Assembly (NCBI GenBank): GCA_034406715.1
Contig: CP137873.1
Span: 124,001-188,000, forward strand
Direction of reading: 5' to 3'
Source of the DNA: Rhodotorula mucilaginosa
Taxonomy: Eukaryota; Basidiomycota; Microbotryomycetes; Sporidiobolales; Sporidiobolaceae
DNA: 64,000 nucleotides
The position numbers were made by a program, and so were the translations under genes. Below the pieces are notes generated by a model. That model did not search any database. It worked only from the letters and a program-made list of their open reading frames with translations, and was not told the origin of the DNA. Below are positions 5,846-56,151 of the stretch, in pieces (the first letter of the stretch is position 1; each line of letters begins with the position of its first letter).

Positions 5846-7329
5846 ATGTCGAGGTCTACCCATAACAAGCAACAAGCCTCCCAGCTGTGGACGGTCGGCC
5901 CGGGTATGGGCGAAAGGTATCGCCGTGTCGCCACGGCGATTCTCAAGTATCGACAGAAACCCCCAATCACTCTTCAGCTAGACCAGCGGCCAGTCACTGA
6001 CGAGGACTTCCGGAAATTACACTGCGAGATCGAGACCATGTTTAAGCTCTATGATACGGTGCAGGGAGTATTCGTGCACGATGGGCTGTGGAGGCAAATT
6101 GGCAATGGCTTGACCGGCGAGCGGCAGCATTCACTTTTATGGTGAATGATTGGCTGCTGACTAAGCCTCGCACTGCTCAACTCTATCATGAGGTCATGAA
6201 GGAATTCCACGCGGACGCGCAGGAGCTGGGCTATTCCATTCTGTATGGAACTCCCGCGAGTGAAGGGGTTCATGACTGGATTGCCTTGATGGTGTGTCCC
6301 GGTCCCTCACCAGCCGGCTCGCCTATGCTGAGTCATGACAAAGCTCAGATGCTGATCTTTTTTTTCAATCTCTGGCAGCTGGCCCGAACCCCTACTGCAC
6401 TACTTCAGCAAATGGCAAGTGAAGCAAGGTTTTTTCCTCAAAGCTGGAAGGCTTCTGGTATCCACAAACGCATGCAGGCTGACAGCCCTTCTGCAGCGGC
6501 GCACCAATCCTCACGTCCGATGCCCGTTTATATTCCAGCAGTACTCCTGTGAGCTGCCCAACCTGCATCCGCTGCTCCACGAAAGCCCTCCTCTCTTTTA
6601 CCCGTCAGCCAATTTCGTCTTGACCCACGCCACCAATGTACTGCATCCGAATGGTCAAATTCTTGTGCACATGGCCGCACATATTCAGGAGTCTATCTGT
6701 CTGGGCCTCGCCCAGGTTTCCGCAGATTATGACCAGGAGTGCCTTAGAGAAGAGGCGCACAGCACCCTTGCGTGGCTACGCACACCAGAAGTCCGTGACT
6801 GGCATAACACTCAGTTGATTCAACATGACCCCAGTTTTGTGGTCCTCCTGGAATGGATAGCAGAGGAGACCAGGCGGATTGGCCAGGCTGACGGATACTT
6901 CATTACGCTCAACTACGTCGTCAGTCTAAGCTTTCCACCCCTCCTGATGCACCTCGCTCACAATTTGACCACATCGTTTGTATGCAGAAACACTGGACAC
7001 CTCTTCTAATTGATGGTTTTATGGTGAGTTGCCCTTGTTTCCTTTGATAGTGGCGAAAGCAAGCACCACTTTGAAACTGATGCTGCAAACAGCATCGAGG
7101 CATCAACTTTCAAGGAACCCACCACAATCAGCGCTTGCAAGCTTTTCCTGGGTCTCCAGCTGCCAAGAATCGCAAGCAAGTGGACCCTGCTACAGCATTT
7201 GCGGAGGAATTATTTGGTCCGGGCAGCGCTCCCTTCTCTGTTTTTCCTTCGCCACCTCCTACTGCAGCGCATCAGCTGGGTCTGCGTGCAGCCAAGCGGT
7301 ACTACGGCCGTCCGCTGTACCGCTGGTGA
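5846..7329 (+). CDS. Unrecognised two-module gene family, member 1 (36-nt microexons)
   Basis: No known domain recognised. Predicted exons are 5846-6291, microexon 6379-6414, 6497-6919, microexon 6988-7023, and 7093-7329. The microexons are each 36 nt and phase 0, encoding LARTPTALLQQM and KHWTPLLIDGFM. Each follows a long exon ending in a hydrophobic residue (ALM, NYV). The first microexon is followed by a GC donor (GCAAGT). The last exon carries AFPGSP and ends in LGLRAAKRYYGRPLYRW-stop, shared with the member at 54771-56151. The first exon changes frame near 6100 (446 nt, not a multiple of three), so it either has an unplaced small intron or a frameshift; the gene may be damaged. GC content is below that of neighbouring housekeeping genes. 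Confidence 0.55.
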
Positions 7330-7713
7330 TAAGCCTGGCTTTTGAAGCGGTTTTCTTCCTTCGTAGCGTTTTGTTCTGATTCTTTCGATATATTTCTTTG
7401 CTTCGTCTCGGCTACGGTTCTTGACTTTTCAGAGTCTTCTCAACATACAAAAGCAGACTGAATGCCGGCAGACAGCAGCTCGCTGTAGTGAGTAATCGGA
7501 GTGAAGACCATACTCGGTAAGGGGAGAGCGGAGAAGTGGCAATAGTGAGAGTGGCGAGCTTGACCGCGGGCGGAAGGCAGCAGGAGGCCCACTGCTACAC
7601 AGAAAAGGATTGCAGGGAGAAGATCACCATGCTGACAGGGAGGAGCGCATAAACAAGCGCAAGCAAGAGCTAAAAAACAAGGAAGCAGTTTGCGAGTTGC
7701 GAGAGACAAAGGT
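7330..7713. other. Intergenic stretch between convergent genes
   Basis: 3' flanks of two convergent genes. A minus-strand open frame (7440-7709) with a hydrophobic N-terminus starts with TTG, so it is not called. Confidence 0.4.
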
Positions 7714-9570
7714 TCAAGGAGGATCCGACGTCTGCTTCTGAGGGGTTGCCCGGATCAAGTCCTTCTCCTGCAGCGTGCTCAAGAGATCAAAGAGAATCTG
7801 CGCGGCACCTTCGGTCTCGCCCGTCCTCGCCTTCTCGCGCATTTCCTTCCACGACTTGCTCGCCTGCACCTCCTGCCAGTTCTCGACGACGTAGTCGAGC
7901 ACGACCTTCTTGACGTCGGTGTAGGCGATCGAGACGGGACCGAACAGTTCGCCCGCCGCGCATTTGGTCGTGAGACTCGTGGAGAGGGCATCGAGAGCGA
8001 GTTGTTGCAATTCCTCTCGCTGGAGGAGATGGGCAAGGCGGTAAACCGACTTGGGCGAGACGGGAGGGGGCAGTGTCGGGTGCTCGGACACGTGTATGTC
8101 AAGGAGCGCTTGACGCGCGGGACCGTCATCTGGATCCCGTGTTAGCCGTTCGCCTTTCACTCCGACTCCAACTTCGACTTCGCCTTCTTCGCCCTTCACA
8201 CAAGCAGGGCGAATCGGACTTGCCTCCGTCATATCGACGAATCGGTTTTCGGTTTTGGAGGATGAGTCTGCACCGCCTACGCCGCTCGAGCCCCTTCACT
8301 CAACTCCGGCGTCTGGACTTGTAGATGTTCGCTCGACTTCTTCTTTTCCTTCTTCTCTTCTCCAGGTCACTTCCACTCTCTGATTTGAATACAAAGCTTG
8401 ATTCACTGTCTCTTGTGACTGGAGATACGAGCTACAAGTCTACCTTCGCGCGAGTCGTCCGTCTCGAGGCATCCTGCTTCCTCGCGGATGGTACGCCTTG
8501 CATCCCGCGTGAGCAGCAAAGATTTGAGCGGGGCGAAGTCGATGTGACCGGTCGCAAGGTAGAGAAGTACCGCACTCATTGTCGAGTAAGCGGTCTCGCG
8601 GACGTCGATCTGTTGATACTCGAGGTCGGATGACTCGCGGCTGGCGGTCTTGCACCCTGACCAGTCGCGCTCGACCAAAAAGTCGTCTGTCTCGTTGTCC
8701 GAGTCCTGCCAATCGATCGTCGGCAATACAGAACTGCCCTGTCCCGACGACTTACGCTCGAGAGGCGGCGGAGCTTTGCCGCGCTTGCGCTTGGAACCGG
8801 AAGGAAGCATTTCGGCGCAGCCGGAAGCCAACAAGGTCTTGTAGTATTCCGAAGCCGTTGTCAGCAGTCCAGAGGTGGTCCAGAGCTCGAGAGAGGCGTT
8901 CTTGAGTCGACGGAACCGTAGGCAGACGTTTGCACGCCTCGTACGAAAGAGATCTGTGGGCACGAGAAGTGGGATCAGCATCGAGTCAAGCAAATGCAAA
9001 AGAGCATGTAAAACACCTACTGGCCAAGCGTAAAGCTTTTGTCACGTCGGCCGTTGGCGTATGATGGCTTCGAGCGGTGTCCAGCTGAAGGTCGCGCTCG
9101 AAGATGAGCGTGCAGCGGTATTGCTGCACGCTGTTTTGCTCGCTCGTTGGCCAGCAGCCGCTCGCGGCGAGCTCGCTTCGCGGCACCAAATTGCTGTAGC
9201 CGGTATAGGGGTAGCCGGTACTGGTATCAAGGCTTGGGTATGGCCGAGAACCCAATAGTAGTCAAAAAGTCGCCTCTGCTCCGTGCCCACGACCGTCGAC
9301 GATCGCGAACTGGAACTTGATGCTGGTGGATTTGCCGAAGGATCCCACTGGCAGCCTTCCATGAGTAACGGAGATGTCGAGTTCGTCAGGATCGTCTTCC
9401 TCATTGGTCAGTTCGAGTCTCCAGCTTCCCGGCAGCGGCACCGACGCAGGCGCTTCGAGGTCGAATCCCTCTGGCGGGAGTTCGGACAAGTTGGCCTTGA
9501 AGTGCCAACTGATCTTGACGGTGTCCTTGTGCTCGACTGCGCCGCCAAGACTCTCGACCGGCTCGAGCAT
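7714..9570 (-). pseudogene. MATH-BTB-type protein, copy 1 (decayed)
   Basis: Clear paralogue of the intact copy at 12644-14120. The MATH-like exon runs 9570-9021 and opens MLEPVESLGGAVEHKDTVKI. The BTB exon starts at 8953 (ANVCLRFRRLKN) and a C-terminal BACK-like helical part (HPTLPPPVSPKSVYRLAHLL) lies at 8100-7714. Damage relative to copy 3: an in-frame TGA at 9262-9264 inside the MATH-like region, and about 350 extra bases between the BTB core and the C-terminal part (8146-8498), after which the frame differs. Imperfect 16-bp direct repeats (8131-8145 and 8499-8514) bound the extra segment. The family usually acts as substrate adaptor for CUL3 ubiquitin ligases; this copy is probably not functional unless unrecognised introns remove both lesions. 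Confidence 0.6.
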
Positions 9571-10157
9571 AACCGCGAGTTAGTTCGAGGCGCGGGAAGG
9601 CGGAAAAGTTCGAGTGTCGAAGGAGGTCGAGGTCGGTTCCGTCGGGACGACGGGCGATTCCAGTCAGACGTATGGAGCGGAGAGCGCGCTTGATGGGCCT
9701 TCGGTGTGGTAGATCGACCGGGCGTGGAGCAGGAAAGCGAGGCGTCGAAGGCGAACTTCTCGCTGCGCCGACGAAAAATAATAAACTGAAGATCGGTTCC
9801 GCACTCTGTCCAGCGGCGCTTTGGAGCAGTGTGCTATCTGTACTCGCCTGGACAAGTCTAGAGCGCGATATTCCGAAACGTACGCGAGCGACGACTGGCA
9901 GCGCATTGCTTTTCTCCCTTTTATCCTGCAGCTTCCTTGTTTTCACTTTTCGACCGATGCCGTTTGCAACGGAGACTCTGCCTTACGCAAACACAGCCGT
10001 GTAAGAAAACGAGACGGACCGGAAAAGCCCGATGAACGGGGTGAAGAGGAAAGTGATGGCCGCAAAGAATGAGAACTTGGAAAGATCATTTCAAGCGCGA
10101 GCAAGCGTTTCGTCTCCGAACCTTACCGCGATCTGTATCCGCCACCCGAGAGAGCGG
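9571..10157. other. Intergenic stretch
   Basis: Promoter side of MATH-BTB copy 1 and 3' flank of copy 2. No further gene supported. Confidence 0.4.
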
Positions 10158-11612
10158 TCAAGGGTTTTCGATCGCAGCAAACACGTCGAACATGACCTGC
10201 GCAGCGCCTTCGGTCGGTCTGCTTGTCACCTTGGCCCGCGCTGCTTGCCACGCTTCGGTCGCCTTGACCTCGTTCCAGTTCTTGACGACGAAATCAACGA
10301 CAACCTTGCGCGGTTTCTCGTACGCGAGCGAAACCGGACTGAAGAGTTCGGCGGCGGCGCCGCTGATCGTCAGGCCGGAGGCGAACGAGTCGAGCGCCAT
10401 CTTCTGAAGCTCCTCGCGCTCGAGGAGGTGAGCGAGGCGATAGACAGATTTGGGCGACACAGGAGGAGGCAAGGTCGGGTGCTCTCCCAAGCTTGTCGCG
10501 AGCGATGCCTTGCGCTTCGTGACGAGCTCGTCGGACGACAGCGCATGCGACGAGCGGATCGGAGCAAACTTGATGTGGCCGGTTTGAAGGTAGAGCTAGA
10601 CTGCGCACATGGTCGAGTAAGCGGTCTCGCGAACCTCGATTTGCTGGTAGTCGAGCTCGGCCGTATCTTGCTTCGTCGTCGTGCAGCTCATCCAGTCGCG
10701 CTCGACGAGAAATGCGTCCGTTTCGTCGTCCGAATCTTCCCAGTCAACGCTCGGATCGGGGTCCGCGGCGCCGGCAAGAGGCTTTTCTTCGGAGGTGACG
10801 TTCGGACCTCGTTGGCGTTTCGACCTCCTGAGCGAAACCGTCTCTGCCGCGCCGGACGCGAAAAGAGCCTTGTAGTAACCGGAAGCTTTGCCGAGGAAGT
10901 CCGCCATCGTCCAAAGTTCGAGTACGAGGTCGCCAGCGCGCTTGAAGAGCAAGCGTGCGTCCATGATCGGCGAGTGTGAAGAATCTGGGACGCAAATGAT
11001 CAATCAGCATTCCTGAGCATTCGGCGGTGAGAAACGATCGCGGGGAAGAGTCGGCGCACTCGCAAGCTGCAAAGCCTTGGTCAGGTCAGACGTAGGAGTG
11101 CGGTATAGACGCACAGGATCTCTCTGTGAGTCCTGCTTAAGGGTGATCGAAAACCGGTACCGCTGGGTGCTGCTCTGCACCGCCTGCGGCAACTTCCCAT
11201 CCGCGGCGAGCTTGGCGAGCTGGTCTTTCGAACGCGACAACCTGTAGGCGGTGTACACCAAGCCATCTCCTTCATCGAGTTTAGGCTGCGGGGTTCTTGC
11301 ACCCGCTGATTCTGTGACAATGTGACGCAGGGCCCCGTTGGCGAAATAGGCAAACGTGCAAGTAACCGTGACGCGTTCTCCGAGCGCAGCGTACGGCAAT
11401 GTGCCATGCACGGCGCACATGCTGAGATCTCCGTCTTCATTGTCGATGGTGAAGCACCAGTCGCCACGCAGAGGCACAGACCCGAACTGCTTTTGCTCGA
11501 CCTCGATGCCCTCTGACGGCAGGTCGGAGAGGTTGGCTTTGAAATCCCACGCCATGGTGACTCTGTACTCGGCATCGACTTGTCCGCCAACGTACTCGAA
11601 TGGCGTCGGCAT
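10158..11612 (-). pseudogene. MATH-BTB-type protein, copy 2 (one nonsense codon)
   Basis: Exon 1 is 11612-11060 (553 nt), opening MPTPFEYVGGQVDAEYRVTM, and exon 2 is 10984-10158 (827 nt). Both lengths are identical to copy 4 at 14686-16129, showing close paralogy. The MATH-like part keeps the KANLSDLP, PLRGDW and YRFSITLKQ blocks. The BTB part keeps DARLLFKRAG, LELW and ASGYYKALFASGAAETV. An in-frame TAG at 10596-10598 replaces the TTG leucine codon of copy 4 (MCAV-stop-LYLQTGH versus MCAVLLYLQTGH), cutting off the BACK-like C-terminus. Everything else reads through, so the loss is recent, or a shorter BTB protein is made. Confidence 0.65.
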
Positions 11613-12643
11613 CGTCGAAGAGTGGCGGTCTTCTTGAGTCGGTTTAAGCGAGAGCAAGTCGGAAAGCCGCCGCGACTCGGGCGCAGGGGTTAGGAGCGAG
11701 GCGTCGAGATGTATAAGCAGCCTTAAGCGTATGCCACGCAAGCGCGTTGCACTCTGGCGAAAGGAGAGGTTGTGGTCAGGGTCAAGAGGAGCGCCGAACC
11801 GATGAAGTTTCCTCGTCTTCTGCCCACGTGCTATAGACACCCAGAACCCGTCGATGGCACTGATAAAAGCTATGACCTGGCTTGCTCTACCGCCTCCTCG
11901 AACGGGAGGGTCTACACCCCTTCGGTCCTCCTCGGCTCTCTTCGGCTTCAAACCTAGATCAAGAGGCCGAATCTTCGCCATATTCTGCCTCGGACAGGTT
12001 AGAGCGGAGCGAACGTGGGAGGACTGGACGACCTCGACTCTGGAAGCTGGTCCGCTGCCATCTGAGCTACCTCCGGAGAATCTGCTGCTCCGCTTTCATC
12101 ACCTCGTCGCCACTTCCGAAGCTGGGACGTCTTCACGCTGCAGTCAGTGACTCTTCTTTGGCATTTTGGTCTATCCGACACTATGTGCTATCTGGTCTCT
12201 GCGCGTCACGCGATCCGCCCCGTTCCGCCGCCGCCTCCGACACTGCCAGCGCTTTTACTCGTTTCCGACTTGCAACTCGCTTTGCCGTGGACTTTGGCCG
12301 AAGCTTGAGGTTTTCGGCTTCTTCCAAGTCCACGACTATAGGCACCATTGTGTTAGCATGAGGGTGGCTTTAGCGCTACGACAACACGATGTGGTGACAC
12401 TGACAAACTTCCTAGTCGCCGTTCCTCCTTCTGTCGGCTGCAGCTTTCAGTCGGCCTGGTCCAGTCATTTGCTCCCTGACCTTCGCCCAAGTCAATCTCG
12501 CTTGCAAAGGGTCAATGCCGCGCCGTGGGAAAGACAGCTGGACACGAAGAAGCGCACCATGCACTGCAGGGACAAGCGCGAGCGACAAACAAAGGAACCA
12601 GAGCGGGATCCTCGGCCCGACAAGGAGGACGACCAAGGATGCC
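11613..12643. other. Intergenic stretch of about 1 kb
   Basis: Promoter of MATH-BTB copy 2 and 3' flank of copy 3. A minus-strand segment around 12010-12080 has a tRNA-like A box (TAGCTCAGATGGC) but no convincing B box or fold, so no tRNA is called. No protein gene supported. Confidence 0.4.
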
Positions 12644-14120
12644 CTACGCAAGCTTCTCGGGAGCCGCACCAAGCGGGTCCTTCCCGTGCAACGCCCGCAG
12701 GAGGACGAAGGAGATTTGCGCGGCGCCTTCAATCTCGCCCGCCATCGCCTTCTCGCTCAATTCGTTCCAAGACTCACTCGCCTGCACCTTCTCCCAGTTC
12801 TTGACGACGTAGTCGAGGATAATCTTGCGGACATCGGCGTAGGCGATCGAGACCGGACTGAATAGCTCTCGCCTCGCCCCTTCGATCGAGAGGCCGGAAG
12901 AGAGGGAATCGAGGGCGAGTTGCTGCAGTTCCTCTCGCTGGAGAAGATGGGCAAGGCGGTAGACGGATTTCGGAGAGACCGGCGGCGGCAGCGTCGGGTG
13001 CTTGGAGACGTGCTTGTCGAGGAGCGTTCGACGCCCGCCAGAATTACCTTGACTGCGCGTCTCAAGTAGAGAATTGAGCGGGGCAAACTCGATGTGACCG
13101 GTTGCGAGGTAGAGAAGTACGGCGTTCATTGTTGAGTAGGCGGTCTCGCGAACGTCGATTTGCTGATACTCCAGGTCTACCGAGTCACGGCTCGCGGTCT
13201 TGCACCCTGACCAGTCGCGCTCGACGAGAAAGTCATCCGTTTCGTCGTCCGAGTCTAGCCAATCGATCGCGGGCTTTTCAGGACTGCTTTTGCCGGAACC
13301 TTCGTGCTTGACAGGCGGTGGCGCTTCGCTGCGCTGACGCTTGGAGCAGGAAGGGACCGTTTCGGCGCATCCGGAAGCGAACAAGGTCTTGTAGTAGTCG
13401 GAAGCCGTGGTAAGCGATCCCGAGGTGGTCCAGAGCTCGAGGCAAACGTCATCAGATCGCCGGAAGCGTAGGCAGACGTCCGCATGCCTCGTGTGGAAGG
13501 AGTCTGGAGAGCGAGAGAGACAGGGTCAGGAGTCATGTGCGACGGGCCCAGGCAGGATATGGGGCAGTAGACTTGCCGGCCAAGCGTTGGGCTTTTGTCG
13601 CGTCAGCGATCGGCGTATGGTGACTGTGCGCTGTGTCCAGGCGGAGGTCACGCCTCAAGATGAGCGTGCAGCGGTACTGCCGCGCGCTGTTTTGCTCGCT
13701 CGTCGACCATGAGCCATTCGCGGCGAGCCTGCTTCGCGACATCGTCAGGCGGTAGGCATCGCAGACTCTGTATGTCTTGAGATCAAGAGAGGGCTCTGGT
13801 TCGCTCCTCCAGGCCTCCTTATCAAGCTGTCGCGTTTGCGCGCCGACGACGAGCGCGAATTGGAGCTCGACAGCCACTGATTTGCCGAACCTTCCCACCG
13901 ACAGGGAACCGTAGCTCACGTCGACGATGAGTTTGTCCGGAGTGTCTTTGTCATTGGCTATCGAGAGCTCCCAGCTTCCCGGCAGCGGCACCGACGCAGG
14001 CGCTTCGAGGTCGAATCCCTTTGGCGGAAGGTCGGACAGGTTGGCTTCGAATCGCCAGCTGATCTCAATAGTATCCTCGTGCTTGATTGCGCCCCCGAGC
14101 GGCTTGACCGACACCGGCAT
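12644..14120 (-). CDS. MATH-BTB-type protein, copy 3 (intact)
   Basis: Likely substrate adaptor for a cullin-3 ubiquitin ligase by family. Exon 1 is 14120-13577, intron 13576-13504, exon 2 13503-12644, giving about 467 residues. Start ATG 14120 (MPVSVKPLGGAIKHEDTIEI). The N-terminal MATH/TRAF-like beta domain carries EANLSDLP and PLPGSWEL blocks. The BTB fold starts at HADVCLRFRRSDDVCLELW and contains a long acidic insert (WLDSDDETDDFLVERDW), then ETAYSTMNAVLLYLATGH. The C-terminal helical BACK-like part has HPTLPPPVSPKSVYRLAHLL. The intron uses a GC donor (GCAAGT) where the other copies have GT. Neighbours are three paralogues in the same orientation, a tandem array. Confidence 0.7.
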
Positions 14121-14685
14121 GGCCACGCGTTCGAATGTCGGATAGGCAGATCAAGAAGCGTTGTGAAGGGAGGTCGACGTCGAGGCGTACGTCGGGGTCA
14201 GCGAGGCTTCGATCAACATGCACTTGACGACCTTACAAGGCGCTCGTCACAGCGGCTAAGGCAGGAGAGCGAGACGGCGGAGGCGAACCTGAGGGACGAC
14301 GGACGAAGTGGATGAGTCTTGGATCGCAGTTCGCCACTCTAGTTGGCCCGGCCTATAAGAATGGCTATAAACGCGAGACTGGACTAGATTCACGTGTGAT
14401 CATGTGGATCATAAAAGAGGCAAATCGTAATTCTTATTCAAGTCGAGTTGACTTTTCCGCCGCGCAATCCGGTCTTGCTCAGCAACAGAGACTCCACCTT
14501 TCCATTCCGCCACACGACATGGTGAAATAAAAATACAACTTGACAAGATGGACTGGAGAACGTCAGATGAAAGGGGCGAGGAGGAGAAGGACACCGCGAC
14601 AAAGGAAGAAAGACCATTTCAAGCGCAAGCGTTCAATCTTCGCTCATGAACCAGGCCGTCAAACCCCCCACCGGAAATAGAGCCG
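14121..14685. other. Intergenic stretch
   Basis: Promoter of MATH-BTB copy 3 and 3' flank of copy 4; locally AT-richer around 14340-14560. No gene supported. Confidence 0.4.
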
Positions 14686-16129
14686 TCAAGTGTTTTCGAT
14701 CGCCGCAAACACGTCGAACACGATCTGCGTCGCACCTCCGGACGGTGCGCTGATCACTATCGCCCGCGCCGCGTTCCAGGTCTCCGTCGTCCGGACCTGC
14801 TTCCAGTTCCCGACAACAAAGTCAAAGACGACCTTGCGCAGCTTGTCGTAAGCGAGCGAGACGGGGCTGAAGAGTTCGTCGGCGGCGCCGCTGACAGTGA
14901 GGCTGGAGGCGAACGAGTCGAGCGCCAGATGTTGAAGCTCGTCGCGCTCGAGGAGGTGGGCCAGGCGATAGACCGATTTGGGCGAGACGGGAGGGGGCAA
15001 AGTCGGGTGCTCTTCCAGGGCTTCGACGAGTGCGGCTTTGCGTTTCGTGACGAGCTCGTCCGGGAAAAGAGCATGCGACGAGCGAATCGGCGCAAACTTG
15101 ATGTGGCCGGTCTGAAGATAAAGCAAGACGGCACACATGGTCGAGTAGGCGGTCTCGCGAACGTCGATCTGCTGGTAATCGAACTCGGCCGTGTCTTGCG
15201 TGGAAGTCGTGCAGCTCATCCAATCACGCTCGACGAGAAAGGCGTCCGTTTCGTCGTCCGAGTCTTCCCAGTCGACGCTCGGATCGGAGTTTGCGGCTTG
15301 AGCGGGAGGTTTCTGTTCGGAGACGACACTCGGGCCTCGTTGGCGTTTCGACCTCCTGAGCGAAACCGTCTCTGCCGCGCCGGACGCGAAAAGAGCCTTG
15401 TAGTAACCGGAAGCTTTGCCGAGGAAGTCCGCCGTCGTCCACAGTTCGAGCTCGCGGCTGCCAGCTTGTCTGAAGAGCAACCGTACGTCCATCATTGGCG
15501 AGTGCAAAAGATCTGGGATGCAGTGATCAGTCAGCGTTCGGCGCCGGGGAACGATCCTGGGGAAGACTCGGCGCACCCGCAAGCTGCAGAGCCTTCGTCA
15601 GGTCAGACATAGGAGTGCAATCCAAGCGCGCGACATTCTCCTCTGGCTCTTGCTTCAAGGTGATCGAGAAGCGATACTGCCGGAGGCTGTTCTGCACCAC
15701 ATGCGGCAACTCCCCATCCGCGGCGAGCCTGGCGAGCTGGTCTTTCGAACGCGAGAATCTGTAAGCGGTGTACACCGAGCCATGACCTTCATGGAGTTCA
15801 GGCTGCGGGGTTCTTACACCCGCTGATTCTGTGACAATGTGACGCAGGGCACCGTCGGCGAAGTAAGCAAATTCGCCCGTGACCGTGACGCGTTGTCCGA
15901 AGGCCGCGTATGCCAGTTTGCCATGTAGGACATCGATATGAAAAACATCGCCTTCGTTGCGAATGCGTAAGGACCAATCCCCGCGCAAAGGGACGGACCC
16001 GAGCTTGTCTGGCTCGACCTCGATTCCTTCAGGCGGCAGGTCGGAGAGGTTCGCTTCAAAGTCCCAGGATATGCTGACGTTGTAGTCGGCTTCGACTCGT
16101 GCACGAAGGAACTTGCCGGGCGTCGGCAT
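14686..16129 (-). CDS. MATH-BTB-type protein, copy 4 (intact)
   Basis: Exon 1 is 16129-15577 (553 nt), intron 15576-15513, exon 2 15512-14686 (827 nt), about 459 residues. Start ATG 16129 (MPTPGKFLRARVEADYNVSI). Order: MATH-like domain (EANLSDLPPEGIEVE, PLRGDWSLRI, QYRFSITLKQ), then BTB (MDVRLLFRQAGSRELELW, ASGYYKALFASGAAETV, ETAYSTMCAVLLYLQTGH), then BACK-like helices (HPTLPPPVSPKSVYRLAHLL). An acidic linker (DWEDSDDETDAFLVERDWM) splits the BTB core, as in the other copies. It is the closest relative of copy 2 and the undamaged reference for it. Divergent from DCP1, with only about 300 bp between the starts. Confidence 0.7.
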
Positions 16130-16427
16130 GGTCGCAGGATGCGGAGACCGGCGGAGAGGAGAGCAGAGGAGCAGAGGTGCGATGAAGAGCGACAGAAAGC
16201 GGAGAGCTGCCACGCCCCGGAGGAGACGGTGCGTAGTCTAGCAAAGCGGGCGAGCCTCAGACAGTCTGTCTAGTCGTTTTCCGTGTATCAACGAGACTCG
16301 GCTCGAGCTAGCAGCGTAGAGTCGGATTCCAAGAGGCGGAGAGACGGTGACGGCTCGTCTCGTCTTTCGACCTCTCGCCATCCACCTCGCAGACGAGCGA
16401 TTTGCATAGTCCACAGCACACGAGAGA

Positions 16428-35731: not shown

Positions 35732-35772
<41 letters not shown>

Positions 35773-41196: not shown

Positions 41197-41343
41197 CAAT
41201 GGGAGCAGAGGAAGAACTGCAGGTGGGGAACAACAACTCGACGGCTAAAGTCGCTTGGAAAAAGCCGGAAGTCATTCCACCGCGAGTCTGTAGTAGTTTA
41301 ACCTTTGTACATATAGTGTATTTCTCGTTTGCGCGCCACCTCT

Positions 41344-45068: not shown

Positions 45069-45615
45069 ATTGGCTTGCACATTGTGCCTGCGCTTTGACT
45101 AGATCTTGTTGCAGTAAGGCCCTCCTTCAGCTACAGTGTTCTTCTGTAGTGTGTTCTGGAAAAGAGAAATACAGTACGCATAGCACAGTTGCTGGTCCCC
45201 CCAACCCAGGCTCCTGCAGCTCCGATGGGCTGCTGCAGATGATTTCCGTGAGCTTCTTCCAGCTCTTTTGGCCACCCTGTCTACTCTGCCCAGCTTGTTC
45301 TGCCTCCATTTTCCAATTCTTCTTACGCCCGTCATTGTTTCCTTTTTTTCGGTGCTGCAAATGGAGCGAGCACCTTGCCTCTCCTCTCCTGCTCCTCAAT
45401 TTGCAAAATGGCTGGCCAACTTCATCATGGGCTTGGTTACACAGGCTTCCTTCCAGCTCTGATGTTAGAGACTGAGGAGCCGAGGCAGAAGGGTAATGAT
45501 GGGACCCTTTTGCGGCCACCTTTTTGAGTTCCTTGAGCTTCACATATAGGAGTTTGTTGCCAATTCAGATGGGAGATGAGAAATACAGACAACACAACAT
45601 GCCCCAAGCGGGCTA
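45069..45615. other. Intergenic, lower-GC stretch
   Basis: 3' flanks of convergent genes. A minus-strand open frame (45543-45127) starts with GTG and resembles nothing known; left uncalled. Confidence 0.35.
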
Positions 45616-46650
45616 TCAGTGCCTGAACACCCTTTTCAGTATATCTCTTTTCCTTGTCTGTGTTTTAGTAGGTTGAAACTCTGGCGGAGGGTTTGGGGGT
45701 GCGGACCTCCCAGGCTCAGGGTCCCCAGGGATAGTGTTAGGAGTCTGGAGAGCAAAGGCCCTGACAAGTTGGGGAGGTTGCAACCCTGGCTTTGAGATGT
45801 AAGTCTCAAGGAAGAGCTTGGAGATGTAAGTCTCAAGGAAGACATGGAATGCAGGTTCGCTGCGGAGGAAAGCCTTGTGGTCTGGATAGGTCCAAGCTCC
45901 TGGGAAGGGATTGGCTTTCATGACGGCGTCCTTGTCAAGTTTCTTCAACTGTGATGACGGAATATGGCTGTCAGCTCAAGGCATGGTGCTGGAGCGCATG
46001 TCAAGCCCAAGGAAAGCAGAAACAAGAATAGCGCAACCCACCATCCACCACTGCACAGCATCTGGCTGCCATGCCAGCTGTAATGCATACAGTGTCAGCA
46101 TGTTTTTGAAACCTCCTCGTTTGACATCACTGGTGTAAACCTACCAAATAGGAACAGCTTATGATGGGTCCCACGGCATAAGCAAGCCTTCGCGGGAGTT
46201 GGTTCAGATACCTGACCCACGCGCCAAAGATCACTCGCGCAGGAGGATCGAGCTTGATGTACCTTGTCTTGACTGGAGTACTTGTGATCCATGCAAGCAC
46301 CTCTTCGAGATTTGACACCACCTGCTGGCATATGTTTGTGTCCACCTGCATGTGTGCCTGCCGTGTGACTTTTCCAAGCATGGAGTCCACCTCTTTTGGC
46401 AATGAGGGCAATACAGTTGGTGATGGATGAGCGGTCTTCACCCTGGAGTTTAGTCCAGTGCTGATCGGAACCCCACCGTGTTGGGATTTCTCCCCTTGGG
46501 AAGAGTCATCATAGAGAGGAACAGTGAAGCGCAACCATTGACGCATCAGTGGCTGGTCCCAATACCTGGTGTAGAGGGTCCGTGGGAACCATGGAACCCA
46601 AGAATCAGTAGAATCAGCTCGAAGAAATGCCGGGGTCGTTGCCTATTTTG
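45616..46650 (-). CDS. Unrecognised two-module gene family, member 2 (probably 5'-truncated)
   Basis: Recognised by its microexon. A long exon (about 46650-46145) reads YWDQPLMRQWLRFTVPLYDD, parallel to SWDRPELRRWMRFTPRVNNP in the member at 47217-53731, and ends CSYL. Intron 46144-46078. Microexon 46077-46042 (36 nt, LAWQPDAVQWWM), nearly identical to LAWSPDAVQQWM of that member. The last exon (about 45948-45616) starts LKKLDKDAVMKANPFPGAWT and contains a tandem duplication FLETYISKLFLETYISK; it lacks the family's usual LG[LI]...W ending. The first module (long exon plus microexon) is not found upstream, so the copy is probably truncated. Function unknown. Confidence 0.45.
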
Positions 46651-47216
46651 AAACGTCGTTCCCACTGCCATGACTTGCAAGTTTACCGCGACATGTATGC
46701 CAAGGTCCGAGCGAGACTGACGCGGACTCGCTTAAGCTCGACTTGCTCTTCTGAGTCTCTTTCTGGCTCCTTCGTCTTCAAACCAAACTCAGCACTATTC
46801 TGGTTGCAGATACTACCACCCAAAGTTACCAGCTGTAATGTAGGCGTTGGACCTCAAGGGTGGCGCATTTCCTCGACGGAAACTGGCACATCATCTCCGT
46901 TGACTCTCGCTTCCCTTTTTCCCTCGTCCCCCGTGCGCTCATTTCTTTTCAATGTCCGATCTTGAGTCACTGCTTGGCTCCGGCCTGTCTGCAGTGCATC
47001 ATGGCCAAACCTGCGCAGGGAATCAAGTTTACGTTAAACTCGAACGTGCTGCCTTTCAAAAGGCAAAATCTGTTGGAGTCAGACCAGAAGCTGCTTACTA
47101 GACCTGCTGCACTCCTGGCTATATCAACATTGTGGCAATGGAAGGATCCCAGACCGAAAAAGGTCTGGGATTTGCAAATCAATCTATGGAGGTGCAACAA
47201 GCCTTTGGGGCCGGGC
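46651..47216. other. Unassigned stretch with a perfect hairpin
   Basis: No gene supported. At 47146-47171 a 10-bp perfect inverted repeat (ATCCCAGACC / GGTCTGGGAT) flanks a GAAAAA loop. Otherwise it may be decayed 5' parts of family member 2. Confidence 0.35.
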
Positions 47217-48003
47217 TTACCAGCCACGGCGCACTCTGGTGTACCGCAGGCCAGAGTAGATTCCAAGCTGGAATGAAGGCACATTACTGCAGCTAATTGG
47301 CATATGTGTTATTGGAGAATGTGTGACAGCACTGGGGGGCGGAGACTGGGTTTACGGTGCAGGAATGGTCCGCATGGACCGGAATTCAGGGTACAAGCTC
47401 AAGAAGTATTTCCTGTATTTATCCTTGCAGGAGCCAGGAAAGGCAGGCAACAAGCAAGCATGTGTGCCCATAGCATGGTTCTTGGCAACATTAGAGAAAG
47501 CAGGCCACAGTGTCAGCTACTCAGGTGCATCATCTCGAGAATAAGGAGCATGCAAACGGAGGTACCATCCATTGCTGCACTGCATCAGGACTCCATGCAA
47601 GCTTGTGCAAAAAATAAGGTGCAAGATCAGCCCAGAGTCTCAGCACAGTCATGATTGGAGTGCTGGACACGCACCAGGTACGAGAGGGTCAAGAAGCATC
47701 CCTCCGCTTGACAGAAAATTGCCCATTCATGTAGATGGTTGATCAGTGCACTGAAAGCTTCCTGTGCTAGTTGGTGCATGTGTAGTTTCTGATACCATGC
47801 AGCAACCAATTCGTCCCTAAGCCACACAAAAAGGTGGTTGACTTCTTCTGTTACGTACTCTCGGTCCTCCTCCAGGATGAAGTCATTCTGTGCCGGCATG
47901 GCACGCAGAGTTCCAAGGAGCCCGTTGACCTCAGTATTGGGTCGGTCAGGACCGGTGAGAGTCCATGGCAGGGCAATGGCCGTAAAGAGGTCAGACACCC
48001 AAG

Positions 48004-48318
48004 TGTTGGAGGCGCGAAGTGACGGCCTTCTCACTTTCGCCTGTTGGCTCGTTGCCCCGACTTCTCCCCTCGTTTCCCCAGCTCCGTCATCTTCATCGTC
48101 TCGCGTTTCGTCGTCCTCGTCATCGGAAGGCTTGGCCTCGCCACTCAGCCTCGCCTTGATGACCTGTGCGAGCGAGTCGGATCTTGTGGTTTTCCTCACG
48201 ATTCGCACTCGCTCTGCACAGGTACGTAGCATCGTGCATAGCTCGTTTCTATTGCATTATCTAACGATTCGCACTCGCTCTGCACAGTCCCTGCCCGAGA
48301 CGAGAACTCTCCGCGATA
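48004..48318 (+). repeat. 5' LTR of the copia-type element
   Basis: Begins TGTTGG and ends GCGATA. A 24-bp repeat (attcgcactcgctctgcaca core) occurs at 48198-48221 and 48264-48287, 66 bp apart. Between the copies the sequence has the shape of an intron: GTACGT donor, CTAAC branch, CACAG acceptor. Confidence 0.95.
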
Positions 48319-48330
48319 GGTTATGAGCTC
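48319..48330 (+). other. Primer-binding site, half-tRNA-iMet type
   Basis: GGTTATGAGCTC directly follows the LTR and matches the complement of the conserved initiator-tRNA anticodon loop region (GGTTATGAGCCC), as in copia and Ty5. The gag start codon (48323-48325) lies inside it. Confidence 0.75.
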
Positions 48331-51300
48331 CTCGCGCGCCGACATCTCGGGAGCGAACCGCGCTCTCGCAGCGGTCCCTCGCCTCAAAGGCAAGGACACC
48401 TACCCGCGCTGGTCGTCCGCCCTCAAGCTCTACTTCAAGAAGTCGAAGAGCTGGGGTGTCATCTCGGGATCGGAACCGAGACCGTCCGTCGTCGCCGCCG
48501 TCGGTCCTAGCACCGCCACCGGCGCCACCGCGCCCGCCACCAACCTCGAAGCGATCGAGGCGTGGGAGGACAAGGACAACGAGGCCAAGTTCGACATCGT
48601 CTCGACAGTCAGCGACGAGCAGCAGAACAAGCTGTATCGTCTTCCGGACACGGCGACGTCGAAGGAGTTCTGGGATCTGCTCGAGAAGGACTACGCCTTA
48701 CTCGGTACCGTCGGGAAGCAGGTCCTCGCGCAGCAACTCTGGTCGCTTCGGCTTCAGGACAGCAAGTCGATGGAGGAGCACCTCGCGAAGATGCGGGACA
48801 CGGCCGCGCGTCTCGACTCGATCGGCGAAGGGCTTCCGACCTCGACTCTCCTCGTCGCCATCAAGGCTTCCCTCCCGGAGTCTTGGAAACCGATCCTCTT
48901 CTTGCTCGACAGCATGAAGTCCGACGACCTCGACGAGATCTGCGCCCGCCTCATCGACGCCGACGAGCGCGAGAAGCTCGTCTTCGGAAACACGAAGGGT
49001 TCCTCGAACAAGAACCCGGCGGCCCTCGCAGCCGCACCGACGAAGGACAAATCGAAGTCCAAGTGTTTCAACTGTGGCAAGAACGGCCATTACTCGCGGG
49101 ACTGCACGAAGCCGCCGTCGGAGGCGACGCTCGCCGCGAGGAACAAGAAGGCTCTCTTGACGAGCACTTCGCCCACGGACGCCGCGCGAACGTACGCGCT
49201 TGCGATTACGGTCGGCAAGGCCAACGTTGCGCCTGCCACCAGCGACGACGACGATGACCCAACCACGAGCTACGAGTCCTGGGTTCTCGACTCCGGCGCC
49301 GCCTGCCACTTCACGGGCGAGCGAGACTCGCTCGCCAACTTCGTCGAGTCGGAGACGAAGGTTGTGGTCGCCGACAACTCCACCGTCACATCGCCGGGAT
49401 ACGGTACCGCCATCCTCCTGACGGAGAAGGGCGACCGCCTCAAGCTCAGTCGAGTCCTCCACCTTCCGGGTGCGAAGCAAGGACTTCTTTCGGTCTCCGC
49501 TCTCGTCGAAGCCGGCGCCACGGTCAGCTTCGCGTCGGGACCGTCGAACAGCGTCGTCAAGATGGGCAACAAGGTCATCGTTAGCACGATTGAAGGCAAG
49601 GGCTACGTGCTCAACGCCAAACTTCTCCGCTCGGGAGAACACTCGCAGTCCGCCGTCACGCACGCCTTTCTCACGCGCGAGAAGGAGTCGGCGTCTCTCA
49701 TGACGTGGCACCGCCGCCTCGGACACATCGCACCGTCGACCATCCTCGCCATCGCGTCGGAGGAGATGGTCAAGGGACTCAGTCTTTCCGACAAGAAGAT
49801 CGAAGACTGCGAGTCCTGCATCGTCGCCAAATCGAAGCGCTCTCCGTTTGCCGCCACCTCGACTCCGGCGGAAGGAGTGCTCGATCGCGTCTTCATGGAC
49901 CTCGGGTTCGTCGAAGACCCGGATCGCGAGGGCCGAAAGACGTATCTCGTCCTCGTCGATCAGTACTCGAACGCACGTTGGACGTTTCCGCTCGCCTCAA
50001 AGCACGCCGCAGTCGTCTTTGAACACTTCCAGACGTGGAAGACGGGCATCGAAAGCCTGACGGGCCGGAAACTCCGCCGGATCCGCTCCGACAACGGATC
50101 CGAGTTCGTCAACTCGACGTTCTCCAAGTTCTTCAAGGACGAGGGAATCCTCCACGAGGTGACCGCGCCGTACACTCCCGAGCAGAACGGCCAGGTCGAA
50201 CGCCTCAACGGATCGCTCATGGCTCTCGTCAAGGCCATGTTGCACGACGCGAAACTCGGAAAGGAGTACTGGTCGTTTGCACTCGACGCTGCGACCTACG
50301 TCTCGAACCGCTCCGCCCACCCGCGCATCAAGGGGAAGACCATCTACGAGGTCTTCATGGGTCACCGTCCCGCCATCGGTCACTTGCGTCCGTTTGGCGC
50401 CGTCACCTACGTCCACGTCGAGAAGGCGCTCCGCAAGAAGCTGGACGCCACGGCCGTCAAAGGCAGGTTCGTCGAGTACTCCGGTGAGTACAACTATCTC
50501 GTCCTGCTCGAGGACGGGAAAGTCGTCACGACGCGACACGCGACTTTCGGACACTCCGAGGAGTCCGAACTCGTCGTTCCGCCTTCCGCGCTCGAACCCG
50601 TCGCCGCCGAACCCGAACAAGAACCCTTGCCGCCTCTCGAACCGATTGACGACCAGCAGGTGTCGGTACCGCCTGCTGATGGGCACGAGTACGTGCTCGT
50701 GCGCACGGGTCCGAACCCGGGCGCGCTCGAGAATGTCGACCCCGCAAACATTCTCGAAGGCGGACGCCGAACTCGCGGCCGGTTCGCCACGATCGAGGAG
50801 TTGGTCGAGCCGGAAACGATCTACGCCAGGCTCGCCATCGTCCACGACTCGGAGGAGCCGGACAAGGAGGGTTCTTGGGAGGAGGACTCCGTCTTTGTCG
50901 GCGTCGCGATGCCGGAGACGCCTCGCTCGTACGCCGAGGCCATGGCGTCGCCGCACAAGACCGAGTGGGTACAGGCGATGAACGACGAGTGGGACGCTTT
51001 CGCCAAACACCAGGTTCTCGCCCCCGCTACGCTTCCTCTCGGCTCGAAGGCGCTCGGCACGACTTGGGTTTTCACGCTGAAAACTCTCGCAGACGGCTCT
51101 CGACGCTACAAGGCTCGACTCGTGGCGCAAGGCTTCGCCCAACGACCCGGCATCGACGTCAACGAGACGTTCGCGCCGGTGGTGCGCGCCTCGACGATTC
51201 GCTATCTCGTCGCCGTCGCCGCCTCGAAACGACTCGACCTCGTCCACTTCGACTTCAACACGGCGTTCCTCAACGGTCGGATGACAGAAGACGTCTTCAT

Positions 51301-52711
51301 CCGCGTCCCGCACGGCTACCCGGGCAAGGTCGCCGACGGACAGGTCCTCAAGCTCGTCGGGAGCATGTACGGGACCAAGCAGGCGCCGAGGGAGTGGTAT
51401 CGCGCGCTCAAGGCGCTCATGGGCAAGCAGGGCTACGTCGCCGCCTTCGCTGACCCGTCTTCACCAAGTCCGTCGCAGGATCGCTAATCGTCATGGCGAT
51501 CTACGTCGACGACGGACTCGCCCTCTCGTCGGACTCGAAGCTCATCTCGTCGGAGCTTTCGGCGCTCCACAAGGTCTACTCGCTCAAGGTCCTCGGTCCG
51601 GTCTCGACTTTCCTCGCTCTCGAAGTCGAACACTTGCAGGACGGACTCTTCTGTTGGCGCGAGTGCTGAAGCCTGTAGGGTTCCCGCCGCGGCTAGAGAG
51701 AAGTGTAAACGTCGGTGCTATGCAAGGACAAGCGAGATCATATCTACCTAGAGAGAAGTGTAAACGTCGGTGAGGAGAAGGAAAGAAAGAGGGAAACATG
51801 ATGAAACTGAACATGGCCCTCAGACCTCCGGACTCGCCGGAACAACACTTCCTCCGGAAATCCTCCCGACCACCACTCTCCGTACTTCCCAACATCTTCA
51901 TTCACCATTCCAAGTACGTCTCTTCGATGCTCGAGCGTTTCGGCATCACGATCCCGTCGCGCGCTCGTGCGAACACGCCGATGGAGGAGCGCTACGGCAT
52001 GGCGCCCGACTCGTCGCCGGCGTTCAACGACATCAAGCTGTACCAGTCCGCTGTCGGCTCGTTGATGTTCACGGCGACTTACGTCCGCGCCGACATCGCC
52101 GTCGCCGTTCGCGCCGTCGCTCAGCGCGTCATCTCCCCGACGGAGAATGACTGGAGCGCTGTCAAGCGCATCTTCCTCTACCTCAGCAACACGGTCGACT
52201 ACGGCATCTTGTACCAGCGCGACACCCCGATCGGTCTCGCTGCGTACTCGGATGCATCTTGGGCCGACGATCTCGAATCTCGTCGGTCGGTCGGAGGTTA
52301 CGTCGTTCTCGTCGCCGGAGGAGCGATCTCGTGGCGCAGCAAGCAGCAAACGCTCGTTGCCACTTTGACAACGGAGTCCGAACTCCTCGCCGCGTCGGAC
52401 GCCACCAAGGAGGTGATCGCCCTTCGTCGTTTGGCGACGGATCTCGGTCACGGCACGGTTGGTCCGACTACGATCTTCGAGGACAACGCCGGCGCTATCG
52501 CCATCGCCGAGAACCCCACGTCCCACGGTCGCACGAAGCACTTCGACGTTCAGCAGCTCTTCGTTCGCGAAAGGACGACTTCGGGCGACATCAAACTCGT
52601 CTACATCTCGACGCACGACATGGTCGCCGACACTCTCACCAAGGCGCTCGGTCGCGTCAAGTTTGAGTTCCACCGCGATGGCATGGGCTTCCGCTCGCTC
52701 TCGACACTTCG

Positions 52712-52720
52712 CGGGAGGAG
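52712..52720 (+). other. Polypurine tract
   Basis: CGGGAGGAG immediately before the 3' LTR, the expected plus-strand primer. Confidence 0.6.
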
Positions 52721-53035
52721 TGTTGGAGGCGCGAAGTGACGGCCTTCTCACTTTCGCCTGTTGGCTCGTTGCCCCGACTTCTCCCCTCGTTTCCCCAGCT
52801 CCGTCATCTTCATCGTCTCGCGTTTCGTCGTCCTCGTCATCGGAAGGCTTGGCCTCGCCACTCAGCCTCGCCTTGATGACCTGTGCGAGCGAGTCGGATC
52901 TTGTGGTTTTCCTCACGATTCGCACTCGCTCTGCACAGGTACGTAGCATCGTGCATAGCTCGTTTCTATTGCATTATCTAACGATTCGCACTCGCTCTGC
53001 ACAGTCCCTGCCCGAGACGAGAACTCTCCGCGATA
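52721..53035 (+). repeat. 3' LTR of the copia-type element
   Basis: Identical by eye to the 5' LTR over all 315 bp; followed by the CCAAG target duplication. Confidence 0.95.
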
Positions 53036-53731
53036 CCAAGGGTTGTTGACCCGCGGCGTGAAGCGCATCCACCTGCGCAATTCAGGGCGATCCCATGACT
53101 GCCTTTTCAGGCTGTCCACTGTCTCTAGGTGTGAATAGCCTGGCAGCTATAGGGCAGGTCAACTACCCGTCGAGGAGGGCAAGAACTACTTCACTTGCCA
53201 TTCTCATAAACATTGCCGTCGGTGTCCTTGAAAGCTGTATGAAGAGCCATGTTATTGGCGCAGTCACTGAATAGTACTTACTGGAAAGGAACTTACAAGG
53301 ATTGCAACATGGGCAAGCCCGCAATCTTTCGCCTCGAGTCCGGGCAAATGCGGCGGATGTTTGAGGTCCCTGACGAGTTCTGCGAGAGCGACAAGGTACA
53401 CTGGGTGGTGTCCAATGCTTGTGCCTGCAAAGGCACTTTGACGGGCATGCCAGTCCCGCCAGGCAGCCTTGATGCGTATCGGAAGTTTCGATTCGGCGCG
53501 ACCTTGCTCGAGATGCGCGACATACGCCGAAAGCTGCGCCATCAGGTCCTTGCACTGGGCTTTTGCCCACAATTGACAGACTGATCTGGGTCCCGAGTCT
53601 TGATCAATCTCTAATAGGGCGACACGCTCCAGATAGTCGTGGGTGTAGTCGACGACGAGCTGGCAGAGCTTCCATTGATGGGAATCCTCCGGATCAAGCC
53701 TCACAAAGTGCGCAGAAATGCGCGGGTCCAT

Positions 53732-54770
53732 GGCGTAGCAGAGGCTCGGGGTTCCTGCAGCTGACCAAGCCGAGCAGCGTGAACAAGCTGAGCTCCCCGA
53801 GAGCTGGTGTCTGGCAGCGAGTTGGGTCGACAACCGGCTTGTCCGCGGAGGCCGGAAGAGGCGTGTGCACCATGGGGGCGCTCTCATTGGCTAGCACGGC
53901 TTACATACTACCTTATCGCGTTATCGCGTTGTCTCGATCTGCCTCGGGACATCCTGAAGGGGCACACTACATCCCTGCAAAGTTGAGTTGCTTGAGCACG
54001 AAATACGTCCGGACCTTCGCAAACTGATGCGAAATCTACGTCGAGAGGGAAAAGAAACCCCGTTCTCTACAGAGTCGCTTGTTATGATTGACTGTTGCAT
54101 GTCTCCTACACAACAGTGTAGACTGTTGAGAAGGACCCACAAGAACTGCAGCACAGGCAAGCTCGGAATCGTTTGCCTCGAGCTCATTTTCTTTTGCGCA
54201 ACCCCATTGTCCCCGTGCTTCCCACTGCTCCGCCGCCGCCGTCCGGATTGCTCTCCCCCGCTTGAGCTACACCCGTGTATTGCAACCCTCGTACGCTGAA
54301 CTTCTCTTCCGTGAGTGATCTTTCAAAGCTTGAGAACAATGAGGAGGCTCGCAGGGGCGCACACTTTTAAGCTTGCTCGCTACACATCGCCCCTCTTCTG
54401 CTAATTCCTGGTATTGCCGAAGTTACACGAGAGGCTGAGTCAAGTCTCGAACGGCCTCCAGTGCGGTTCAGGGGTGCAGGGCGACGAGCTCGCGGATAGT
54501 GGCGACCAATGTTGCGCGGAGCGGGGGCAGAACAGGCGGCTGTTCGCATGGAGATGAGCGTATGACGCGATAACAAAGCTCACTTGCGCTGCTTTTTGGC
54601 TTACGTCAAAGTATCGGACATCCGAGCGCGCGCTCAGGCCGGTCCCATAGTCGTCCGCGGACATCCCGGGACGGCCGACCTCACGCCTCACGTACTCACG
54701 CCCTTCTCTTTCTCCCTCTTCAATCTTGACAGGCTGTGCAGCGCCGCCTTCACCAAACACCACCTGCTCA
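53732..54770. other. Divergent region between two family members
   Basis: About 1 kb between starts of the members at 53731 (minus) and 54771 (plus), so likely a shared promoter. An 8-bp direct repeat (cgcgttat/cgcgttgt) lies near 53918-53935. No gene supported. Confidence 0.35.
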
Positions 54771-56151
54771 ATGCAGTCTAACCTGCCCATGGCGCACAAC
54801 ACGCCCGATGCTGACGCGCTGCGCAAGAGATTCCTCTCCGAGTACAAGAATGACTTGGAAACGGTTGCACGCAACTATCTGGAGCGGCCCGTCACCCACG
54901 TGGTGACTCGCCGTGGAGGGCTGCCAAGTTGGAAACGCACAGAGCAATTCCTTGATGACCTGCAGAAGTGGACAAATTTTCTCTTGAGGGCTGAATCTGC
55001 TCCGACTGATCAACAGTGGAGGCCACTCCTTGACCCGGAGACTAAACGTCTCATTAGTGATGTCCGTGAGGTGTTTAAACCTTGGTGGGACGCAAACAAG
55101 CAGACAAAGACATACTACGGGTTGCAGCTTTTTCGCCAGGCCGTGTTTGATCTCTTGGACTGGGTCAAAAAAGAAAAGTCCATCGTGCCTACACTGGGGT
55201 GCCTTGTGAGTCTTTCACATCCACATACTGGAGGTCACCTCACTTGACCGTGAACTGACTAGCTTTGTGGTCCACAACTATACAGTTTGTCCTTACTCCG
55301 CAGGCTGTTTGGGCACAAATGGTATGAGTAAATGCGTTTGACTTGCCCATAGATGATGACCTGACTGCACTATGCTTTGACACATCAGCGCAAGTATGAG
55401 CACCTCAATGAATTCCAGCCCAATAGGGTCCTGGATCGCATCTCTGCGCCTATCGGCATACAACAGCGCATGTGGAAGATGCCCGGCGTTGACCTCAATT
55501 ACGCACCTCTGGCAGTCTTCCATGTCACAAACCTTGTGCACGGTCATCAACAAGGGGCACAGGCAAGACAGGAGCTCTCTGCCTTGGCAGATTCCCTGGC
55601 CAGATCAGTGAGATCATCACCTTCAAAAACTGAGCTTAGATCCGGTCTCAAAAGACAGGTCGAGCGTTTCATCGGCCCTGCAGTGAAGTACTGGTACGAC
55701 GAGAGCCAGAACCTGAACACCGGAGCTGCACCGTGGTATGCCAGCCTCCTCAAGACGATTACATCTGAAGCGCACACCATCGCCAAGTATGAGGGGCCGG
55801 TACTTGCGATTCAGTTCCTTGTAAGCATTGCTGCCTCAGCCACTCTGTGCAATAGTCTGTAGGCTGACAAACAAAAGAAAACTTCCAGGAGCGCTACACT
55901 CCAGATTTGATTGACAAGCACATGGTGAGTCGGGCAGGACACAGGTCGAAGTTGCAGAATTGCTGAAACCCAACTGCTTGACCGGGGGCGGGGTTTAGCA
56001 CCAGGCAGTGCCGGAAGCAAGAGCTTTTCCGCATTCGGCGCGCGACATGACGAGGATTGCAAACACGACAAGCATTGCAAACCTACTCAACCCCAACTCC
56101 CTGGGCCTCCGCGCAAGCGTGCGATATGGCAGAGCCGTCCGGCACTGGTAG
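54771..56151 (+). CDS. Unrecognised two-module gene family, member 4 (intact reference copy)
   Basis: Best-preserved member; no known domain. ATG 54771 (MQSNLPMAHNTPDADALRKR). Exons 54771-55205 (435 nt), microexon 55286-55321 (36 nt, FVLTPQAVWAQM), 55389-55820 (432 nt), microexon 55889-55924 (36 nt, ERYTPDLIDKHM), 55999-56151. All junctions are phase 0 and the sum is 364 codons, so 363 residues. The long exons are helical and charged, with aromatic clusters (VREVFKPWWDANKQTKTYYG) and end LGCL and IQFL. The last exon has ARAFPHSARD and ends LGLRASVRYGRAVRHW, shared with member 1. Two long-exon plus microexon modules suggest an ancient internal duplication. No signal peptide or membrane span seen. 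Lower GC than flanking housekeeping genes. Confidence 0.65.

Follow-up and report, generated by a model that had tools for sequence, protein, structure and literature searches.

What kind of gene carries, twice over, an exon of exactly 36 nt between long exons that diverge from copy to copy, and what keeps so short an exon in place? The question is raised by four loci (A to D) in a 64,000-nt stretch of the Rhodotorula mucilaginosa genome (C10:124001-188000, hereafter the window; the genome comprises 20.35 Mb in 19 contigs), in which an earlier note had seen an unrecognised gene family built on seven such microexons. One PAL exon of the genome is clearly different from the nearest PAL chains in the PDB (1y2m and 1t6j, from R. 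toruloides) and matches the PAL of R. mucilaginosa. The explanation that we favour, and regard as reasonably probable, is that the loci belong to a lineage-restricted multigene family of Rhodotorula-type yeast, whose copies arise by tandem duplication, diverge and decay close to the end of a chromosome. The family is new, its mode of evolution is familiar, and its exon signature is both unusual and useful.

Microexons of the window and of the family

A strict scan of both strands was made for an AG followed by 36 open nucleotides with proline at residue 5 and ATG as the last codon, and then by GT or GC. Exactly seven microexons were returned from the window, all open in phase 0 between AG and G[TC], with no further match, and these are the seven previously assigned to the four loci, recovered at 6379-6414, 6988-7023, 55286-55321 and 55889-55924 on the forward strand and at 46077-46042, 47601-47566 and 53234-53199 on the reverse strand. 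In 20 third-order Markov sequences, each as long as the window, the scan found 0-2 matches apiece and 17 in total. When C10:1-258000 was scanned with the same motif, which adds the first 124 kb and positions 188001-258000 to the window, 22 matches were obtained, 20 of them in family members (seven in the window) and two outside the family (C10:26144 and 248065). Five more microexons were located by position and not by motif, all of them 36 nt between AG and GT: MTLRPNDVQHWL in member G1, whose last codon is CTG, LLWTPELVTLWK in G6, which ends in AAG, MRYTANGIDSHM in G2, which has no proline, and both microexons of a member on contig C2, LSRTPTAMCIRM and LAWHPNDVQYWM.

Altogether the family has 25 microexons at 13 loci, 12 of type 1 and 13 of type 2 (the first and the second microexon of a gene, respectively). 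All 25 are 36 nt long and in phase 0 on both sides, a length that the scan itself imposed for 20 of them, and no located member required another. Type 1 follows the motif xxxTPxx[MLIVF]xxxM and type 2 usually xxW[TS]PxxVQxWM; proline stands at residue 5 in 12/12 type-1 and 12/13 type-2 microexons, methionine at residue 12 in 12/12 and 11/13, and three of the 13 type-2 microexons are without proline or the final ATG. The generalisation that the last codon is ATG is therefore correct for the seven microexons of the window but fails family-wide, given the CTG of G1 and the AAG of G6. GC donors occur twice, after microexon 1 of A and after that of C, and the same ten bases, GCAAGTGAAG, which include this donor, follow both of them (from window positions 6415 and 53198), despite the different sub-groups to which A and C belong.

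Could the microexons be an artefact, stretches of introns or other non-coding DNA that resemble spliced exons by chance? The motif is short and basidiomycete genes are rich in short introns, both of which count for such a reading. As a general explanation it was rejected on the excess of the window over every Markov run (seven against 0-2), on the recurrence of the pattern beyond the window, and on the third-position pattern and the register match between the two types that are described below, and we consider it extremely improbable.

A clustered family near a chromosome end

The 13 loci are diverged paralogues, 12 of which are clustered within the initial 180 kb of contig C10 (C10:1-180200), and their exon order is the same wherever the exons are present. 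On the reverse strand of C10 lie, at approximate positions, G1 (7.7-9.1 kb), G3 (100.9-102.4 kb), G4 (103.0-104.5 kb), G5 (105.5-107.0 kb), G6 (108.2-109.7 kb), G7 (118.3-119.7 kb), G8 (120.2-121.6 kb), B (170 kb) and C (171-178 kb); on the forward strand lie G2 (71.3-72.6 kb), A (130 kb) and D (178.8-180.1 kb), and the thirteenth member, found by protein search, is on the forward strand of the other contig (approximately C2:80.2-81.7 kb). G3-G6 and G7-G8 form same-strand tandem arrays. C10 starts with a (CCCTAA)n telomere repeat, and one member is found 8 kb in. Just past the repeat, C10:80-139 encodes a 20-residue stretch, LLHIASETCKIGARDGCYIA, that resembles the end of exon 2 and may come from a copy truncated at the chromosome end; its best match to exon 2 had an E value of 0.001 against a 400-base target, and it was not recovered at E 0.01 over 258 kb.

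Judging from splice signals and open frames, a typical gene would have five exons joined in phase 0, namely a long exon 1, a 36-nt microexon 1, a long exon 2, a 36-nt microexon 2 and a tail. The nine full-length models (G1-G8 and D, with the N-termini of G4 and G8 cut back to a later ATG) predict proteins of 345-415 residues, with exon 2 of 405-459 nt and exon 1 of at least 396 nt. Exon 2 is only 16-47% identical to the first of 11 aligned sequences, and the invariant columns of the nine models include the T-P and M of microexon 1, a P and a W in exon 2, then a W-Y pair and a G beyond them, and the F-P of the tail. Most tails end near LGLR..RYG....W-stop, those of G5, G6 and G8 being the exceptions. 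The tails of G5 (C10:105.0-105.8 kb) and G6 (107.7-108.5 kb) have no LGLR..RYG..W and microexon 2 of G6 ends in AAG, so that these copies may be decaying.

By our own grouping on microexon 1, three sub-groups may be distinguished: ARTP/AYTP (G1, G3-G6 and A), SRTP (G7, G8, C, the C2 member and, by its exon 2, B) and a D type (D and G2). Upstream of G2, C10:70348-70784 holds a relic in which a D-like upstream stretch (75% over 110) and a D-like tail (74% over 270) are separated by some 70 bases, the middle exons being missing.

Searches for relatives

The proposal that the family is an unrecognised one is supported by the searches made. None of the nine spliced models exceeded a curated Pfam-A cut-off, the best being SAM_PNT, which reached 13.5 bits (E 0.073) where 24 are required, and exon-level Pfam scans of 11 and 9 sequences gave DUF1391 alone, at E 0.19 in one sequence. 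No match better than E 0.3 was obtained among PDB sequences, nothing convincing in PADLOC (best E 0.042, 9.3 bits, one model) and none in PHROGs, and no HET domain was present in the Pfam scans of the nine models. A collection of 5.8 billion proteins returned 20 open reading frames (ORFs), one of them the window's own, with no name beyond 'hypothetical protein' and no Pfam domain. Among the literature matches listed, from a coverage that leaves out most subscription papers and all preprints, no paper describes such a Rhodotorula family.

Because only exon-sized ORFs were returned, spliced fungal relatives may be missing from the 5.8-billion-protein collection, and the lack of relatives is weak evidence, which leaves some room for the family being a divergent branch of an old and widespread fungal family that has lost its similarity under relaxed constraint while keeping a housekeeping role. 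Several members are intact and the nearby domains are ordinary, as this would have it, whereas the divergence of exon 2 within one genome, the clustering and the decay of copies would be unusual for housekeeping genes; we consider it unlikely, though deserving of some weight.

The best 19-residue hydropathy of the nine proteins is 1.00-1.43, and this measure, the only one used, gives no evident sign of a signal peptide or a membrane segment; the N-terminus is not strongly hydrophobic in eight of the nine on this crude scale, for which the N-termini of G4 and G8 had been taken too long. As no such segments are evident, the proteins are probably intracellular.

Coding evidence and selection

Exon 2 and the microexons all carry a coding pattern. 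In exon 2, conservation is strictly lowest at the third codon position in 43 of the 45 pairs that ten genes make (mean identity at positions 1, 2 and 3, respectively, 0.41, 0.49 and 0.32), and the same is true of type-1 microexons in 58 of 66 pairs (0.62, 0.73 and 0.37) and of type-2 microexons in 56 of 78 (0.53, 0.59 and 0.39), figures that cover all pairs and not chosen ones (10 for exon 2 and 12 for the microexons, all favourable). Between microexon 1 of G3 and that of G5 the protein is identical at 12/12 residues and third positions are shared at 5/12. Third codon positions are near saturation between paralogues, and similarity in BLASTN comparisons between loci is mostly confined to exons and short flanks. 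Among the 28 introns checked, 26 could not be retained without loss of the reading frame; three intron-3 donors in this set were re-set later.

The exon ends find support in public ORFs as well: in all 20 homologues (P0001-P0020) the frame continues beyond the exon with V and then S, R, C or G, as expected from a GT at that point, and P0002, which starts MLERM-V, has the GT straight after microexon 1. We read eight of these ORFs as near-identical to members of this genome, P0004 being the window's own, and the other 12 as divergent, and public contigs hold other versions, such as P0002 and P0014, 75% and 63% identical to the query member. The codon-position comparisons indicate that the amino-acid sequence of the microexons is under purifying selection while the long exons diverge.

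Selection on the length is another matter. The fixed length of the microexons had been thought to look selected, a view that gains no support beyond the ordinary inheritance of gene structure: 38 of the 131 twelve-residue windows of exon 2 (29%) are also gap-free in 11 members, so that a constant 36 nt is weak evidence for it. Most simply, the length would reflect an inherited gene structure and the microexons would be inherited, constitutive exons.

Since all 25 microexons are 36 nt and in phase 0 on both sides, they could in principle be skipped in frame, and one may ask if they are regulated cassettes that switch protein variants, as in the micro-exon genes of schistosomes. A fungal precedent exists in the functional microexon switch reported for Trichoderma Xlr2 (PMC11121469). 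Conservation of the residues fits constant inclusion equally well, and we hold such regulation to be improbable, preferring constitutive exons.

Duplication of the module and structure models

When the type-1 and type-2 microexons were compared at 11 offsets, offset 0 alone scored positive, and 0 of 2000 column shuffles reached its score. As far as alignment can tell, this shows the two microexons to be copies of one ancestral segment. Between the long exon of module 1 and that of module 2, hhalign gave a collinear match with E 0.012 and a probability of 3.6% when the microexons were included. The repetition of the whole module, long exon plus microexon, which had been proposed for this family, is accordingly firm for the microexon and weak for the long exons, whose match falls to E 0.16 without the microexons.

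AlphaFold models of exon 1 and exon 2 of D, each taken singly, have low confidence (mean predicted local distance difference test, pLDDT, 50.9 and 61.3). Each closes, at the splice site, with a helix some 20 residues long (115-134 and 113-135, respectively) and then a short one (138-144 and 137-143). A fold search with the low-confidence exon 1 model found nothing beyond generic helical arrangements.

The four loci of the window and their neighbours

Locus D is the only intact member within the window. On the forward strand it has an exon 1 of 435 nt at 54771-55205 (donor GTGAGT), open and in phase 0, with divergent homologues (P0018 and P0020) that read on through the same GT; microexon 1, FVLTPQAVWAQM, at 55286-55321; an exon 2 of 432 nt at 55389-55820 (donor GTAAGC), with homologues P0001, P0008, P0010 and P0011; microexon 2, ERYTPDLIDKHM, at 55889-55924; and a tail exon at 55999-56151 that ends in LGLRASVRYGRAVRHW-stop.

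Locus A, also on the forward strand, is frame-broken, because its exon 1, at 5846-6291 as the earlier note apparently modelled it, is 446 nt long, a length not divisible by three, and contains stops in frame. Microexon 1, LARTPTALLQQM, with a GC donor, is at 6379-6414, exon 2 (423 nt, donor GTCAGT) at 6497-6919, microexon 2, KHWTPLLIDGFM, at 6988-7023, and the tail exon at 7093-7329 ends in LGLRAAKRYYGRPLYRW-stop. On the reverse strand, module 1 of locus B was not found and module 2 alone was recovered, with exon 2 at 46145-46642 (its start uncertain), microexon 2, LAWQPDAVQWWM, at 46042-46077 and a tail exon at 45616-45948. Just upstream of B, at approximately 46675-46710 on the same strand, the sequence LARTLAYMSR may be what remains of a type-1 microexon that differed in length.

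Locus C, on the reverse strand, has an exon 1 of 435 nt at 53297-53731 and microexon 1, LSRTPTAMFMRM, with a GC donor, at 53199-53234. Its exon 2 is split into a 5' part at 53036-53146 and a 3' part at 47675-48001 by a Copia-type long terminal repeat (LTR) retroelement at 48002-53035 on the forward strand, which encodes gag (LTR copia type), integrase and then reverse transcriptase. The end repeats of the element, at 48002-48318 and 52719-53035, are identical over 317 nt, and the insertion is for that reason considered recent; the element is apparently flanked by the 5-bp repeat CTTGG. Microexon 2 of C, LAWSPDAVQQWM, follows at 47566-47601, and a tail region with two candidate exons, at 47217-47516, ends in LGIYSGLRYTRVRRGW-stop.

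The tail end LG[LI]..RY...W-stop was present, as reported before, in three members of the window (A, C and D). The double module described for full members holds for D and, with D counted, for nine full-length models.

The LTR element in C, the broken A and B and the relic at C10:70348-70784 might suggest that a mobile element spread the family or gave rise to it, and that the copies are non-functional debris. Against this, the exons carry a purifying codon pattern, the DNA similarity found from copy to copy is mostly that of exons and short flanks, and the copies keep their introns, which excludes retroposition; and the element was seen in one copy only, with identical LTRs, and is therefore best regarded as a late guest. 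Such an origin seems to us very improbable indeed, and the same frame-broken, truncated, split and relic copies are rather taken as signs of birth and death in a multigene family.

As for the neighbours, 76 of the 90 long ORFs of the window were scanned unspliced against Pfam (the others lie in the family loci or the LTR element), with matches to eight models: two of TFIIF beta, Mss4, MatE and four of GNAT acetyltransferase. No HET match at E 0.001 was found among these 76 unspliced ORFs. The MatE match is a transporter fragment at 58094-59263.

Interpretation

In the mechanism that we propose, each long exon and its 12-residue segment would form one helical module, which the segment would close as an N-capped helix, and the protein would consist of two modules and a basic C-terminal tail. 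The residues kept in the microexon are T/S-P, taken as the N-cap, and a short stretch after it that mostly ends in M. In fungi, fast-evolving clustered families of this kind near chromosome ends often house genes for recognition, conflict and niche adaptation, and because the rapid change, the clustering, the decay of copies and the divergent versions in other public contigs fit such a role, a recognition or conflict function (self/non-self, anti-parasite or selfish) may be guessed at in preference to housekeeping, with low weight. A bolder version, in which the two frame-neutral 36-nt exons, copies of one module end, serve as cassettes that switch helical modules on and off and so yield many protein versions from few genes in a polymorphic Rhodotorula recognition or conflict system (self/non-self, gamete-killer-like or anti-parasite), appears very unlikely.

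Several points weigh against a lineage-restricted, fast-evolving family of two-module proteins. All exon junctions are predictions drawn from conservation, open frames and splice signals. The collections behind the lineage restriction seem to be poor in spliced fungal proteins, nothing speaks directly for a recognition or conflict role, and the domains near the family (TFIIF beta, Mss4, MatE and GNAT) are ordinary. The long exons by themselves do not match significantly (hhalign probability 0.4%), the structure models are poor and do not include the microexons, and type-2 microexons show the third-position signal less strongly, 22 of their 78 pairs lacking the strict pattern.

The family offers a clean case of a microexon retained for its residues while the surrounding exons turn over. 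Exons this small are likely to be missed by automatic annotation, and the exon signature makes the family easy to trace by gene structure in other Rhodotorula genomes.

Comparison with known systems

The first helix of the SAM/Pointed domain has the form W-[ST]-x-x-x-V-x-x-W, which microexon 2 (usually xxW[TS]PxxVQxWM) resembles. The SAM_PNT match named above falls on the microexon 2 stretch of G8; membership in this family was rejected, as the match is below cut-off, covers 26 residues and occurs in one of nine proteins, and we attribute the likeness to convergence of an N-capped helix.

Micro-exon genes (MEGs) of schistosomes encode secreted proteins, and no signal peptide is evident by hydropathy in the Rhodotorula family. 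In both cases gene families have symmetric exons of at most 36 bp, and for MEGs homologues beyond the lineage are absent and a role in protein variation has been proposed (PMC8293314). MEGs consist mainly of micro-exons (PMC8293314), whereas in Rhodotorula two of five exons are of 36 nt and their sequence is conserved, so that membership among genes made mainly of exons of at most 36 bp was rejected and the two are likened by gene structure, not by sequence.

In Neurospora, lineage-specific genes with few or no domains aggregate near telomeres and are clustered with HET-domain genes (PMC10684091); unlike them, the Rhodotorula genes form one coherent multi-copy family with a common exon layout, and no HET match lies among the 76 unspliced window ORFs scanned. 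The P450 genes of Phanerochaete chrysosporium are a basidiomycete multigene family with microexons of 2-10 amino acids and extensive clustering (PMC1184071). There, microexons are scattered over a known enzyme family (PMC1184071), whereas in Rhodotorula a fixed 12-residue exon is repeated within an unrecognised one.

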